Shown: positions 23,286-36,223 of the stretch, piece after piece
Layout: every line of letters begins with the position of its first letter
Numbering within the stretch: the first letter of the stretch is position 1
DNA from: an uncultured bacterium
Lineage (GTDB): Bacteria; UBP6; UBA1177
Direction: 5' to 3'
Assembly: GCA_905233945.1 (NCBI GenBank)
Contig: CAJOFY010000012.1
Span: 1-40,639, forward strand
DNA: 40,639 nucleotides
The notes under the pieces: model-generated
Databases searched by the model: none
Told to the model about the DNA's origin: nothing
The model's input: only the letters and a program-made list of their open reading frames with translations
Program-made: the position numbers and the translations under genes

Positions 23286-25097
23286 CTAAATCGCGGTAAG
23301 AGCACAGCCGGAACCGTCCTCACTTGTATTACGTGAACTTTCGCCGCCTGGCTGTTCAGGCGTGTCGCTGCTTTCTGTATCGGCTGTATCGCCGCTGTCC
23401 GACGGATCAGGCTGATTTGTGTCGGAAGTATCGGTATCAGCCGTATCTGCGGGATCGGGAACAACTATATCCTGGCCGCAGATAACGCCTGACATATCTG
23501 TTCCGGCCATTTCAAGAGCCTTCTTGACCGCTTCGCACGCGTTGATCCTGCCGTAACCGTAATTCATGTTGAAACCGTTGGCGTCATAGGCATCGACACC
23601 GTTTTTATCGGAAGTTTCCTTATAAATTTCGTAAATCTGATCTCTCGTAAGATTCGGATTGGCAGTCATTACAAGTCCTGTGATTCCGGCTGCGAGAGGA
23701 CACGCCGAAGATGTGCCGCCGAAACTGTTCGTGTAGTTGCCGAGTGCGTCGCCGTCGTTTGTATTGCCGGCATTGTAACCGGAACTTCCCATGTTGTCGG
23801 TCGTCCAGATTCCGTCGATGTAACTGCCGCCTCCCCAGCCGTCGCCGCCGCCCGCAGAATCGATGTCGCAGCTTGAAGCCATGAAGTCGAGCGAGTTGCC
23901 GAAATCTGAATAGGACGCCCTGTTTCCGGAAGCGTTGGTCGCACCTATCGCAAAAACATTCGGATTGCTTGCGAAACCGTCGGTTTCTATGCTTTCACCG
24001 CCGTTTCCGGCAGCAAAAAGAATGACTGTTCCGAGCCCGTTCCTGCCGGTTGCGGTAATATTCGCAACGAGATCCTTCAAAGTCTGGTTCATATCGACCG
24101 TCTGACCTGTTCCGTCCGCCGGGCCCCAGCTGTTCGAAATTATGTCTGCGCCGGCATTTGCAGCCCACTCGAAAGCCTCGATTGCCGAAGCGTCAAGCGA
24201 AGTGATTCCGGTCATATTCATTCTTATCGGTATAAGCTGGCAGTTCGGACACGCTCCTGCAATGCCGATGCCGTTGTCGGTTGCTCCGCCTGCAACTCCG
24301 GCGACCGATGTTCCGTGCATGTCCTGCGCACCGGGATTGGGCATATCGTCTCCGTCAGCAAAATCGTGACCGGGAAGAAAACGTCCCTGAAAATCCTCGT
24401 GCGTAAGGTCGAAACCGTCGTCGATTATCGCAAGTTTTACCGTCGAACCGCCGAACTCGCCTTTGAACGCAAGCATGAGATCCCATGCATCGGCAACATG
24501 CGTGTGATCAGTTCCTGTAAGCGAAGAATCTCCGAAATTGTGGAGATGCCACTGGTTGAAAAATAAGGGGTCGCTCGTGATATAGGTTCTTTTCTCGAAC
24601 TGCATGAAAAAGCTCGGCTCAGCCTGCTCCGCAATCTTTTTCTCGACGAGCTCGACCGATTTTCCGACCGGATTTCCGCCTGTTTCGGCAAGATACCAGT
24701 CAGGCGCGTATTTAAACTTCTTCACAAGGCGCATTCCGTTGGATTCAAACCACTTTCCGGCATCAGCAATTCCTGTGATTTTTACAAAAACCATGCCGCT
24801 CGCATAGACTTTTTCGCCGCCGTTTCTTTTGTAAGCCGGAAGAATAGTTCCTTTTTTCGTAAGTTCTTCCAGATTTTTGGGACTAAGTTTATCGAAAAGA
24901 TAGATATTTTCATGCCGCAAAGAGAACTTGAGATCTTTAGGAAGAGAGCCAGCATCTTTCAACCCGACATTTTTGATGAAAGTGTAGCCAGAAGTTTCGG
25001 ACAAAGTAATTTTTTTACCGTTTGAATAGTAATAAAGACCTTCCGCGAACATAAAAAACGGAAGAAAAAGCATAAAAAACAATGTAATTTTTTTCAT
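23286..25097 (-). CDS. Secreted subtilisin-like serine protease (S8), second paralog
   Basis: A 603-residue exported protease paralogous to the one at 504-2564, including the shared GLYYYSNGKK/TLYYYVEGKK mature N-terminus. Signal peptide 1-18; catalytic residues Asp226 (AIIDDG), His261 (DMHGTSVAG), Ser463 (GGTSSACP), oxyanion Asn322 (IISNSWG). Residues about 548-590 are a short TADTDTSDT/PSDSGDTADT linker, much shorter than the first paralog's, and the DUF4215 cysteine repeat is absent. The C-terminus is DGSGCALTAI, the shared GC[SA][LI]xxI ending. ATG 25097 has GGAG eight bases upstream; the upstream in-frame ATG at 25139 lies inside the preceding gene. It follows the DUF11-type gene by 20 bp. 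Confidence 0.94.
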   Translation of the reverse strand: MKKITLFFMLFLPFFMFAEGLYYYSNGKKITLSETSGYTFIKNVGLKDAGSLPKDLKFSLRHENIYLFDKLSPKNLEELTKKGTILPAYKRNGGEKVYASGMVFVKITGIADAGKWFESNGMRLVKKFKYAPDWYLAETGGNPVGKSVELVEKKIAEQAEPSFFMQFEKRTYITSDPLFFNQWHLHNFGDSSLTGTDHTHVADAWDLMLAFKGEFGGSTVKLAIIDDGFDLTHEDFQGRFLPGHDFADGDDMPNPGAQDMHGTSVAGVAGGATDNGIGIAGACPNCQLIPIRMNMTGITSLDASAIEAFEWAANAGADIISNSWGPADGTGQTVDMNQTLKDLVANITATGRNGLGTVILFAAGNGGESIETDGFASNPNVFAIGATNASGNRASYSDFGNSLDFMASSCDIDSAGGGDGWGGGSYIDGIWTTDNMGSSGYNAGNTNDGDALGNYTNSFGGTSSACPLAAGITGLVMTANPNLTRDQIYEIYKETSDKNGVDAYDANGFNMNYGYGRINACEAVKKALEMAGTDMSGVICGQDIVVPDPADTADTDTSDTNQPDPSDSGDTADTESSDTPEQPGGESSRNTSEDGSGCALTAI

Positions 25098-25117
25098 TCT
25101 ACAAACTCCATTCATCA

Positions 25118-26950
25118 CTATATAAACAAAATCGAACAACCTGAATCGTCTTCTTCATCCCCTGCCCCGCTGTCAGCTGAATCTCCGTCACCCGGATTCT
25201 CTCCGCCATTGCCGGAATCACCCGCAGTATCGCCACCGTCATGGGTATCATCATGAGATGAAGTATTGCTGTCGTCGGGAACATCTTTTGTTCCGTCACA
25301 GCTCATGCTCTCCTTCGTGTAAAGCTTAGCCTTGACTGCTGCATCGTCAAAGACCTCGCATGTAGAAGCGAAAGTGGCTCTGACAGGCAGACCCTGATTT
25401 GTTTTGTAAGCCGCTTCCGATCCCGTTTTATCATCCCAGATGAGAGCTGTATTCGTAAATGAAGTGTTTTTCGGCAGATCCTCTGCCATTTTTACGAGGA
25501 AACGCATGAGAATTCTTTCGCAGTTCAACTCATCCTGACAGATTTCCATCGTATCAGCGACCATAATGCCTGATTGGAGCGGAAATCCGCCGTTATCCGG
25601 ATAATTCTCAAAACATTTTCCTGTTCCGGTGTAGTCGATCTGGAAAGTTCCCGGAATATAGGTCTGAAGGCTGTTCAGCTGATCACTTACCATGACGAAC
25701 TCGGCAGGTTCCTGACCGTGGTTTTCAACAACAATTTGGTATCCGAAAACAGTGTCCTTGCATACTTTTCCTTCTTCTCCGGTCGTTGTGAGAAGGAATT
25801 TCTCGTTCTTTTCAGGAATGTCAAACGCAGGGAGGCGCGTGTCAACAGAAAGGATCACATAGTTCGTGAGAACAATGTCTGCACCGGTCTTGATGTAGAA
25901 ATTCATTGAATTTGTTCCGTACTGGACATGCGGATTTATTATGCTGTCAGGAACATTTTCGTCATACTGCAAGAAAAATGTGTCGACATCGAACGAAAGC
26001 TCCTCGCGGCAGTCAGAGACCTCGCCTTTGTGGTTTACAGTCCTGAACTTGCTGTTGAAAGGCTGGTTGAGCGGATTGCAAGAACCGTCGGCATCGCCGA
26101 GAACTAGCGCTGTCGGAGCAAGACCGCCCTGCACTTCCAAAGATTCCGGAGCCGATTTTACGTCATCACCGTCAGCCGTAACGAACGAAACTTTTACCGC
26201 AGCCTTTTCGGGAAGCTCGAAATTCGCGATATTGATTGTTGTTGGTTTCAGATTGGTGTTTGAACTCCATGTCAGACCGTTGTAAAGATAAAGTCTTTTT
26301 CTCGCAATCTGGGAAGATCCATAAACAAGAATGAGCTGCCAGCCGCCGATCATACTCGCAGAACTGCAGTAGACATGTTTCTCGCCGCTCTGAGCACAGT
26401 CGTAGATGTCGTCTACGCCGCTGACCTTATATTCGCCGGCCAGTGATTTAATATTGCCGTTCTCATGGTCGTACTGATAATTAGCAATAATATCGGTGAC
26501 ATCGACTCTGTAAACGTAGTAGTAATAACCTGTCGAATAGTATGTTTCAAACTCAAAACCCTGGGGTGAAGCCGAATTGCCCTGAAGCGATGCTGTGACA
26601 GTATGATCCTCACCATCTGGCGTCATCAAAGTGACCTCGTTGTCGGTAAACATCATCGAATCGGCATCGTTCACTGAAGCAAACCAGATAAGAAATGCTT
26701 GTTCAATAACGGCATCGGCCGGAATATCGCTTTCCAGAAGAAAGTCGCTTGCACCCTCAACACCTATCGAAGTGTCACCCTGCGGTTCGTAAGTCGAATA
26801 AGCACCGGTATTAGCAAGGAGCGACTTCGACAGAATAAAGTAGTCGTAGGCTCCTTCATACTCAAAAGTCGGAATATTACTGATAGGCAGAGCATTCAAA
26901 ATCCCGAAAAAAATCGTGTTTAAAATCAAGAGCTTGCAAACATGTCGCAT
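25118..26950 (-). CDS. Exported surface protein with DUF11-like domain and terminal GCSILFI motif
   Basis: A 610-residue exported protein. Signal peptide about 1-21 (MRHVCKLLILNTIFFGILNA). Residues 25-390 are beta-rich, with VYRVDVTDIIANYQ and GGWQLILVYGS resembling DUF3344-like adhesin modules. Residues about 395-500 look like a DUF11 repeat (YQIVVENHGQEPAEFVMVSD, LQTYIPGTFQIDYTG). Residues about 555-602 form a Gly/Asp/Ser linker, and the protein stops at DDSGCSILFI, the shared C-terminal motif. ATG 26950 has GGAGG seven bases upstream. It leads the operon with the second subtilase, UbiA-like and vWA genes, driven by the promoter at 26987-27014. Probable adhesin-like surface protein. Confidence 0.88.
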   Translation of the reverse strand: MRHVCKLLILNTIFFGILNALPISNIPTFEYEGAYDYFILSKSLLANTGAYSTYEPQGDTSIGVEGASDFLLESDIPADAVIEQAFLIWFASVNDADSMMFTDNEVTLMTPDGEDHTVTASLQGNSASPQGFEFETYYSTGYYYYVYRVDVTDIIANYQYDHENGNIKSLAGEYKVSGVDDIYDCAQSGEKHVYCSSASMIGGWQLILVYGSSQIARKRLYLYNGLTWSSNTNLKPTTINIANFELPEKAAVKVSFVTADGDDVKSAPESLEVQGGLAPTALVLGDADGSCNPLNQPFNSKFRTVNHKGEVSDCREELSFDVDTFFLQYDENVPDSIINPHVQYGTNSMNFYIKTGADIVLTNYVILSVDTRLPAFDIPEKNEKFLLTTTGEEGKVCKDTVFGYQIVVENHGQEPAEFVMVSDQLNSLQTYIPGTFQIDYTGTGKCFENYPDNGGFPLQSGIMVADTMEICQDELNCERILMRFLVKMAEDLPKNTSFTNTALIWDDKTGSEAAYKTNQGLPVRATFASTCEVFDDAAVKAKLYTKESMSCDGTKDVPDDSNTSSHDDTHDGGDTAGDSGNGGENPGDGDSADSGAGDEEDDSGCSILFI

Positions 26951-26986
26951 CTGACTTCCTCCAAAAGCGCAGAACAAAAACTAGTT

Positions 26987-33349: not shown

Positions 33350-33377
33350 TTGATTTGTTCCCCTCTTTCTGTAAAAT
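33350..33377 (+). promoter_or_regulatory. Putative promoter for the Sel1 lipoprotein gene
   Basis: TTGATT (33350-33355), 16-bp spacer, TAAAAT (33372-33377), 43 bases before the ATG at 33421. Confidence 0.55.
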
Positions 33378-33420
33378 ATTCCGCTCTTTTGGGGAGTTTT
33401 ATCTTTTACAGGAGAAAAAA

Positions 33421-34854
33421 ATGAGAAAAAACATTGTTTGCATGATGCTGTTTGTGCTTTTTGTATTCGCCGGATGCGGCTCGGTTTCTCTTTTTGAAAA
33501 AGGAAATGCCGCAAGAGAAACCGACAAAATCAAGGCGCGCGGCTATTATCAGGAAGCCTGCGAGAAGGAAAATCATTTTGAAGCGTGCCACAACGCCGCG
33601 TTGCTCTGGCAGAACGGCGACGGCATGAGCGAAGAGAACAAAAAGGCGCGCGAACTCTTCAAAAAGGCGTGCGACGGCAAATTCGACGAATCCTGTTTCA
33701 TTCTTGCCGACATGTGGGCGAACGGAAAAGGCGGCGTCTACAAGGACACAGATTCGGCTTTCAATCTTTATAAGGAAACCTGCGAACGCGGTCTCGGCAA
33801 GGCCTGCAGAGGTGTCGGACAAATTTATGCAAAAGGCGGCGGCTCGATTGCAAAAAATATTGCAAAAGCTAAAGAATATTTCGCTCTCGCATGTGACAAA
33901 GGCGATATGAACACCTGCGTTGATCTCGGCCAGACCTGGTCAAAGAAATTCGACGAGGCGGAAGGCTACGAAAAAACAGTCACCTTCTGGGGAAAAGCCT
34001 GCAACAGCGGAATGCTTGACATCTGCGAAAAACTGGCTGACATGATTGTTGCAGCCAAAGAAAAAGAGGAAAAACTCCCGCTTTCCAAAGAATATTACGA
34101 AAAAGCCTGCGACGGCGGCTCGAAGGAAGCATGCTACAAAATTGCCCGCGTAATGGTTGAAAATGTAGAAGGTTCCGACGGCGAAGCACAGACTTACTAC
34201 AAAAAGGCGTGCGATGCGGATCACGCGGAATCGTGCTACTACATAGGCGTTTACCTGAGCGAGGCTTACGGCGAGACTCTTGAACTCGACAAACTCAAGG
34301 AAATGCACTCATACTACGACAAATCCTGCAAAAAAGGCTTTGAGGCTTCATGCTCCAGTGCAAATTCGCTGCAAACCACGATAAGCGAACAGGAAGAAGC
34401 TATCCGCAAACAGGAAGAAGAAAAGAGACTTGCTGAAGAGGAAGCCCGCAAAGAAGCTGAAAGACTTGCGGCAGAAGAAGCTGAAAGAGAGAGACTCGAG
34501 CGCGAGAAAGCCGAAGAAGAGGAAAGACGCGCTCAAGAAGAATTCAAAAGACAGCAGGAAGAAGAGGCAAGAGAGCTGAAGAGACAGCGTGAAGAGGCTG
34601 AAAAAGAAGCTGCTGAAGCCGAGGAAGAAGATGAAGAGGAGGACGAGGAAGAACCTGCTCCTAAGAAAAAGGTCAGCAAGAAGAAAGCTCCGGAACCTGA
34701 AGAGGACGAAGAGGAAATAGACGAAGACGAAGACGAAGATGAAGAGGAGGAGGAAGAGGAAGAAGAACCTGCTCCAAAGAAAAAATCCAAATCCAAATCA
34801 AAACCGAAAAAGAAAAGCGCAGAGGAAGAACTCGACGACCTTTTTGACGACTAA
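33421..34854 (+). CDS. Sel1-repeat lipoprotein with coiled coil and acidic C-terminus
   Basis: A 477-residue lipoprotein (lipobox VFAGC, Cys19). Residues about 30-315 contain seven to eight Sel1-like repeats, each with a regularly placed cysteine pair as in beta-lactamase-HcpA-like proteins (YYQEACEKENHFEACHNAA, LFKKACDGKFDESCFILAD, YYEKACDGGSKEACYKIAR). Residues about 320-400 are a Glu/Arg/Lys coiled coil (RKEAERLAAEEAERERLE). The tail alternates acidic runs with PAPKKK and ends LDDLFDD. ATG 33421 has GGAG seven bases upstream. Sel1 proteins serve as scaffolds in envelope signalling. Its stop is one base from the convergent CorA-fusion stop. Confidence 0.9.
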   Translation: MRKNIVCMMLFVLFVFAGCGSVSLFEKGNAARETDKIKARGYYQEACEKENHFEACHNAALLWQNGDGMSEENKKARELFKKACDGKFDESCFILADMWANGKGGVYKDTDSAFNLYKETCERGLGKACRGVGQIYAKGGGSIAKNIAKAKEYFALACDKGDMNTCVDLGQTWSKKFDEAEGYEKTVTFWGKACNSGMLDICEKLADMIVAAKEKEEKLPLSKEYYEKACDGGSKEACYKIARVMVENVEGSDGEAQTYYKKACDADHAESCYYIGVYLSEAYGETLELDKLKEMHSYYDKSCKKGFEASCSSANSLQTTISEQEEAIRKQEEEKRLAEEEARKEAERLAAEEAERERLEREKAEEEERRAQEEFKRQQEEEARELKRQREEAEKEAAEAEEEDEEEDEEEPAPKKKVSKKKAPEPEEDEEEIDEDEDEDEEEEEEEEEPAPKKKSKSKSKPKKKSAEEELDDLFDD

Positions 34855-34855
34855 T

Positions 34856-36223
34856 TCAGAACCAGTCTTTTTTCTTAAAATACCAGACAACGAGCCCGGA
34901 AAACATTATTGAAATCAGAACAAAAACGGCAAACGCGTAAGGTGATTTGTCACCGGGGAGCTGAATGTTCATGCCGTAGATCGAAGCAAACATGACTGGA
35001 ACGGTGAGGACAATCGTGATGATTGTGAGAAGTTTCATGATGTTGTTCAGTTTGTTTGAGATGATAGAGCTGAATGCTGTCATCATTTCGCTGACAATAT
35101 TGTTGTAGATGGACGACATTTCGATAGCCTGCTTGGTTTCGGTCACGATGTCGTCGATTTTGTCGTCATTTTCCTCGGTAACAGGAACAAGTCCGATTTT
35201 TCTGAGCCTCATCGCCATGAACTCGTTCGATTTGAGCGCGGTAGTGAAGTAGACGAGACTTTTTTCGAGGTTCAGAAGTTTCGCTAGATCTTCGTTTCTG
35301 CTTGTTTCCTGAATCTTTTTCTGGACGATCGTGATGATGTTGCTGATCTGTTTCAGGTAAAGCAGGAAAAGCTGCGTCGTGTCGAACAGAGTCGTAAGGA
35401 CAAAGTCGTCCTTTGCGAGGCTTCCCAGATATTTTTTCTGCATGTTTTCTATCATTTTCGAGATGAATTCGGTCTGCATGCCGCATACGAGAAGAATTGT
35501 GTTCCCGGCGAAAATTATGCCGAGGGGAATTGTTCCGTACATCTCGTCCTCGTCTGTCGAATCGTAGTAAGGGATTTTCACGATGACGAGTTTGTTATTG
35601 TCATCCTCTTCGATACGAGCCCTTTCATCCATGTCGAGAGCGTATTCGAAAAAATCGGCGGGAATGTTAAGTTCCTTGCAGAGGAAGTCGATCTCCTCCT
35701 GACCAGGGTCTGTTACCGTGATCAAGGCTCCTTTATCTAACTTGTTGATTTGTTTGAGCTTTTTTGCAAAAGGCTTATAAACTCTGATACTTTCGTGAAT
35801 GTTGCCCTCACGGTCACGAATGATGCCGGGAATATTTCCGAAAAGAGCTTCCTGCGCCTGCCTCGACTCTTTGTCGATTTCCTCGATAAGTTCGTGGATT
35901 TCCGCCTTTTTTTCTTCATCAAGAGTAGAGAGAATCTGCGGGTGCATCTCTTCGGGCAGTTCGTAAAGCAGTTCTGCAAGCTGTCTGCTTGACATCTGCG
36001 AAGTGATCTGATTTTTTACTTCGTCCTCGAACTCAGTGAATATATCGGCAACTATTTCTTCATCGACAAACGAAAAAATCTGAATAATTTCAGGAATTTC
36101 CAGCGCTTCAAAGAAGTTAGCCACAACATCCGGCGGGTTCGACTCGGCAAAATCTTTGATATCCTCAAAGAGACCGTCTTCGAGCATCTCCCTGATTTCT
36201 TTGACGAGCAGTGTATTTTTCAT
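34856..36223 (-). CDS. MgtE_N-CorA fusion: divalent cation (Mg2+) transporter
   Basis: A 455-residue inner-membrane protein, longer than usual CorA (about 320). Residues 1-120 look like the MgtE N-terminal superhelical domain (EDGLFEDIKDFAESNPPDVV, LAELLYELPEEMHPQIL), which in MgtE senses cytoplasmic Mg2+. Residues about 140-455 are CorA: cytoplasmic funnel (ITVTDPGQEEIDFLCKEL, IPLGIIFAGNTILLV), the long helix, and two membrane helices joined by the signature YGMN (GMN at 417-419), ending in the basic KKKDWF. CBS domains and the MgtE channel are absent. The gene therefore joins parts from two unrelated Mg2+ transport systems. GGAGG lies five bases before the ATG, inside a hairpin. Confidence 0.9.
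   Translation of the reverse strand: MKNTLLVKEIREMLEDGLFEDIKDFAESNPPDVVANFFEALEIPEIIQIFSFVDEEIVADIFTEFEDEVKNQITSQMSSRQLAELLYELPEEMHPQILSTLDEEKKAEIHELIEEIDKESRQAQEALFGNIPGIIRDREGNIHESIRVYKPFAKKLKQINKLDKGALITVTDPGQEEIDFLCKELNIPADFFEYALDMDERARIEEDDNNKLVIVKIPYYDSTDEDEMYGTIPLGIIFAGNTILLVCGMQTEFISKMIENMQKKYLGSLAKDDFVLTTLFDTTQLFLLYLKQISNIITIVQKKIQETSRNEDLAKLLNLEKSLVYFTTALKSNEFMAMRLRKIGLVPVTEENDDKIDDIVTETKQAIEMSSIYNNIVSEMMTAFSSIISNKLNNIMKLLTIITIVLTVPVMFASIYGMNIQLPGDKSPYAFAVFVLISIMFSGLVVWYFKKKDWF

Follow-up and report, generated by a model that had tools for sequence, protein, structure and literature searches.

A gene of an uncultured bacterium of the UBP6 lineage (UBA1177) encodes a fusion of an MgtE-type N-terminal domain to a complete CorA magnesium channel. 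The gene lies on a contig of 40,639 nucleotides (GenBank assembly GCA_905233945.1, contig CAJOFY010000012.1), the whole of which is referred to here as the window. The fusion is real and stably inherited; its recurrence at full length in independent genomes excludes an assembly artefact. The transfer of a domain between MgtE and CorA, two unrelated families of Mg2+ channels, is well supported. The reading that we prefer, with a probability of roughly 0.55, is that the fusion is a CorA channel standing in for MgtE, whose N-terminal domain acts as a cytosolic regulatory or subunit-packing module.

Architecture of the fusion protein

The fusion gene occupies positions 34856-36223 on the minus strand and is one uninterrupted open reading frame of 455 amino acids with an ATG start, an extent supported by full-length homologues. 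A plus-strand reading of the same interval was rejected, since that frame is not open. A preliminary description of this DNA had likened the N-terminal 120 residues to MgtE and had taken the C-terminal two thirds for CorA with a GMN filter, and profile searches bear out both assignments. The Pfam family MgtE_N (cut-off 25.9 bits) matches residues 20-113 (35885-36166), scoring 47.9 bits on the full protein and 53.3 bits when residues 1-130 are scored alone; the runner-up on that segment, FliG_M, reaches 18.9 against a cut-off of 25. Pfam CorA (PF01544) matches residues 169-451 (34871-35719) with 170 bits against 27, covering profile positions 8-292 of 292. Whole-genome profile searches place the two domains at the same coordinates as the protein scan. 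Among NCBIfam models, TIGR00383 (corA) matches residues 166-455 and TIGR00400 (mgtE) residues 4-127 only, both under their whole-protein equivalog cut-offs. In MgtE itself the N-terminal domain is followed by a CBS domain, a plug helix and a membrane domain; neither Pfam nor NCBIfam finds a CBS pair, the plug helix or the MgtE membrane domain (PF01769) anywhere in the fusion protein.

The N-terminal domain

The MgtE affinity of the N-terminal domain is seen in profile and in fold. A profile of 10 fusion N-terminal domains aligns to one of 11 MgtE N-terminal domains at 98.8% (E = 8e-17), over all 113 columns and with one 12-residue gap. The AlphaFold2 model of the isolated domain, built on an alignment that included MgtE sequences, comprises eight short helices plus a single long one, at a predicted local distance difference test score of 90.5. 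Its nine best fold matches in the PDB are all MgtE cytosolic domains, followed by FliG, at Foldseek E-values that are modest (3e-3 at best); the model superposes on 2oux_A with a root-mean-square deviation of 2.4 A over 108 columns. A full-length AlphaFold2 model made without MgtE rows shows essentially the same helix pattern in this domain. FliG, or some other helical repeat, was therefore rejected as the identity of the domain, both profile and fold matches being weaker than those to MgtE. The preliminary description would have failed on a missing MgtE_N match or on a different helical fold, and neither is the case. The armadillo (ARM)-like domains of FliG and FlgY are related helical superhelices, but besides the weaker match they differ from the fusion in their flagellar setting and in having no channel attached.

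With the N-terminal domain of MgtE (PF03448; TtMgtE 2YVX/2ZY9, 2OUX, 8GPV) the fusion shares a right-handed superhelix of short helices and an acidic character. The net charge of residues 1-113 is -21, and acidity is common to the whole fusion family. The superhelix together with its connecting helix spans residues 1-128 (35840-36223), and the models show a long helix at residues 103-128 (35840-35917) linking it to the CorA part. Across lineages whose proteins are only ~42-44% identical, the tip MKNxLL at the N-terminus hardly changes.

The CorA part

The CorA part is complete in sequence and in the AlphaFold2 model. It comprises the alpha/beta domain, a long stalk helix continuing into the first transmembrane helix (residues 350-417; 34973-35176), the GMN selectivity filter (417-419; 34967-34975) and the second transmembrane helix (430-451; 34871-34936). 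GMN lies between the two C-terminal transmembrane helices, as the CorA family requires, and does not vary in any of the 48 aligned rows. The best fold match in the PDB is MjCorA 4ev6, with a template modelling score of 0.75 by target length and E = 2e-15. In sequence this part is of a compact CorA type, about 310 residues long, which occurs in Bacillota and Bacteroidota; the identity over this part is 34-42%.

The fusion shares with CorA channels (MjCorA 4EV6, TmCorA 4I0U and the compact type) the alpha/beta domain, the stalk helix, the two transmembrane helices, GMN and the equivalent of Asp253 of Thermotoga maritima CorA (TmCorA). The latter is Asp358 (35150-35152), an aspartate in 48 of 48 rows. 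The fusion differs from these channels in about 140 extra N-terminal residues and in the M1 regulatory pair D89/D253, which is incomplete: TmCorA D89 aligns with Tyr194. The pair is a gating feature of TmCorA and is not demanded of the CorA family. D221 had been a candidate for the D89 equivalent and was rejected once the numbered alignment placed D89 at Y194.

Distribution of the fusion and of MgtE

The genome that carries the fusion is 2.65 Mb in size and 99.7% complete. It encodes no CorA and no MgtE_N protein besides the fusion, and whole-genome profile searches find neither an MgtE membrane domain nor an MgtA over the cut-off. The wider survey covered 28 UBP6 genomes and samples of Bacteroidota and Bacillota. 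As to the spread of the architecture, a check proposed in the preliminary description, the fusion is present in 22 of the 28 UBP6 genomes (three of the 22 copies are truncated or split at contig ends), and both domains are intact in all 11 family members scanned with profiles. The UBP6 carriers are genera g1-g3 of the group labelled f1, along with f3 at 43-45% identity.

Within UBP6 the fusion and MgtE exclude each other. None of the 22 fusion-bearing genomes has the MgtE membrane domain, while a full MgtE is encoded in all six genomes lacking the fusion (f1 g4, f2 and f4). Restricting the count to the 18 genomes with completeness of 90% or more and contamination of 5% or less leaves 13 with the fusion and five with MgtE. 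Counted by genus, the numbers are six and four with zero overlap; because the split holds at genus level, the exclusivity is not merely a product of many near-copies, although the independent events are few. Two f4 genomes have a second frame matching the MgtE profile beside mgtE (L106, 18-1439; L107, 3-1391; both minus strand), apparently a tandem paralogue.

In a scan of named genomes, full-length matches occur only under the titles UBP6, 'uncultured Spirochaetales' or plain 'bacterium', and Bacteroidaceae give CorA-only matches. Rumen and other gut samples are the main source of the fusion-bearing records. The matches listed from ~790 genomes of Bacteroidota and Bacillota include no full-length fusion; among plasmid records none reaches 80% coverage of the fusion query, and viral contigs give no fusion match. 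Across the UBP6 genomes and the matches listed from the Bacteroidota and Bacillota samples, the fusion is found only in UBP6. A 448-residue 'fusion' in two Bacillota loci (L102 and L104) was rejected: the 125 residues upstream of CorA do not match MgtE_N and seem to be read-through of non-coding DNA. No description of the MgtE_N-CorA architecture was found in the open-access literature; a listing in some database is still conceivable.

Origin and selection

The CorA domains of the fusions form one clade (support 99/97) inside the compact CorA type, so the fusion arose once on the CorA tree; the tree does not settle the sister of this clade. Estimates of omega are ~0.03-0.10 for the N-terminal domain and 0.01-0.05 for the CorA part. 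Both are under purifying selection, the CorA part somewhat more strongly.

Linkage of corA and mgtE is encountered elsewhere. Of 40 compact-corA loci from Bacillota, five have a full mgtE as the adjacent gene: L143, L144 and L148 in divergent orientation, and L149 and L157 in tandem (corA-mgtE). In one Bacteroidota locus (L073), a compact corA and a full mgtE are convergent. That corA-mgtE linkage came before the fusion is hinted at but not proven by these loci, several of the genomes being close relatives.

Genomic surroundings in the window

Directly beyond its 3' end, the fusion gene meets a plus-strand gene (33355-34854) tail to tail, with the stop codons 1 base apart. The product of that gene resembles a lipoprotein, carries Sel1-like repeats and has at its C-terminus a long tail rich in E and K. 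Upstream of the fusion gene, no Rfam match to a Mg2+ riboswitch reaches the gathering score, and only sub-threshold noise (E 0.6-0.8) is seen. Elsewhere in the window, three minus-strand genes (504-2564, 23286-25139 and 25118-26977) encode secreted-looking proteins, two of them subtilisin-like. All three end in a low-complexity linker and then a short tail of a cysteine plus hydrophobic residues, a possible signal of this lineage for C-terminal sorting or anchoring.

Possible roles of the N-terminal domain

In MgtE, the N-terminal domain contributes the Mg2+ ligands E59 (Mg7), D91 (Mg4) and D95 (Mg6), and Mg4 and Mg7 form bridges from it to two partners, the CBS domain and the plug helix (PMC5882242). 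The D91 position is aspartate in 12 of 12 MgtE sequences and arginine or glutamine in 10 of 10 fusions, and the D95 position is glutamate in the same 10 fusions; two MAFFT modes and the profile comparison agree on this. The D95 equivalent in the protein studied here, Glu84 (35972-35974), is glutamate in all 14 fusions aligned. The E59 position varies in MgtE and fusions alike, being D or E in 9 of the 14. The favoured alignment leaves the fusions without one 12-residue helix beside the D91/D95 motif, so that they differ from the MgtE domain in one helix as well as in the lost ligand. This ligand assignment is not final: Pfam and phmmer give an ungapped register, in which the residue opposite D91 would be about E92 and that opposite D95 about Q96. 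One early alignment was discarded because the MgtE domains fell onto the CorA part.

With both partner surfaces missing, and with no acidic counterpart of D91 in the favoured alignment, the published MgtE sensor has not been carried over as such, and as aligned the N-terminal domain does not reconstitute the Mg2+ sites known from MgtE. The preliminary description had proposed that a Mg2+-sensing domain moved from MgtE to CorA. Profile, fold and recurrence uphold the transfer; the label of sensor is not well supported, the CBS domain and the plug helix being missing and D91 lost in the favoured alignment. Mg2+ sensing by the domain is nevertheless possible. That the sensor moved with its chemistry, so that cytosolic Mg2+ would occupy MgtE-like sites in the domain and the CorA pore would shut, is improbable given what happened at D91 and to the neighbouring helix, even though the domain is of MgtE ancestry, has been kept under selection, and retains an acidic residue at D95 throughout and at E59 in the majority of fusions.

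In the preferred reading, the fusion would be a homopentameric CorA-type Mg2+ channel that replaces MgtE, with five N-terminal domains hanging off the cytosolic funnel. These domains might pack on the CorA cytosolic domain of the neighbouring subunit or on one another, and such packing could bias the pore towards the closed state or towards concerted opening. Given how acidic the domain is, packing may tighten at high cytosolic Mg2+ and provide a second brake atop CorA's own funnel. A gating role beyond that funnel is plausible, and deletion of the N-terminal domain does change the activity of MgtE (PMC3435302). More tentative is the notion of a CorA channel run by MgtE's cytosolic gating logic, in which the superhelix would be a Mg2+-dependent brake that resets the CorA threshold, and the chimera would replace MgtE lineage-wide.

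Several observations weigh against the preferred reading. The surfaces with which the domain works in MgtE, those of the CBS domain and plug helix, are missing, and in the favoured alignment the D91 ligand has been replaced. The monomeric full-length AlphaFold2 model has a predicted template modelling score of 0.63, and the arrangement of its domains is only loosely fixed. Also, the genome encodes one CNNM/CorB-family protein (PF01595; C21:80910-81449, L163) in a 442-codon open frame. This may be a second Mg2+ transporter, in which case the fusion is not the sole route for Mg2+.

Packing without any Mg2+ sensing, where a ring of ARM-like superhelices simply stabilises the CorA pentamer, is a serious rival, because FlgY builds the flagellar E-ring with an MgtE_N-like domain: such folds oligomerise and pack into rings there (PMC11870540). 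The ARM-like domains of FliG likewise join neighbouring subunits in flagellar rings, and Mg2+ plays no role in rings of this kind. The position of FliG directly behind MgtE in fold and profile and the loss of D91 are consistent with it. We nonetheless consider a purely structural module rather unlikely, as the nearest matches are to MgtE and not to FliG, acidity is kept family-wide, and exclusivity with MgtE suggests a link to Mg2+ homeostasis. It is also conceivable that the domain tethers the channel to a cytoskeletal, ribosomal or proteolytic partner and controls its abundance or location instead of its gating. Such a role would suit the conserved MKNxLL tip, and in DT40 cells MgtE lacking its N-terminal domain was no longer down-regulated in a Mg2+-dependent manner (PMC3435302); yet the neighbouring genes offer no hint of a partner and there is no candidate, which leaves a tether with little likelihood.

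Significance

MgtE and CorA are unrelated answers to Mg2+ uptake, each gated in its own way. A natural chimera of the two, exclusive with MgtE in its phylum, opens two questions to direct testing: can a regulatory domain be transplanted from one channel family to another, and what is the function of the MgtE N-terminal domain by itself? It would be a useful test because the deletion studies of MgtE disagree, the N-terminal domain appearing either to clamp the channel closed or to be needed for its opening (PMC3435302).
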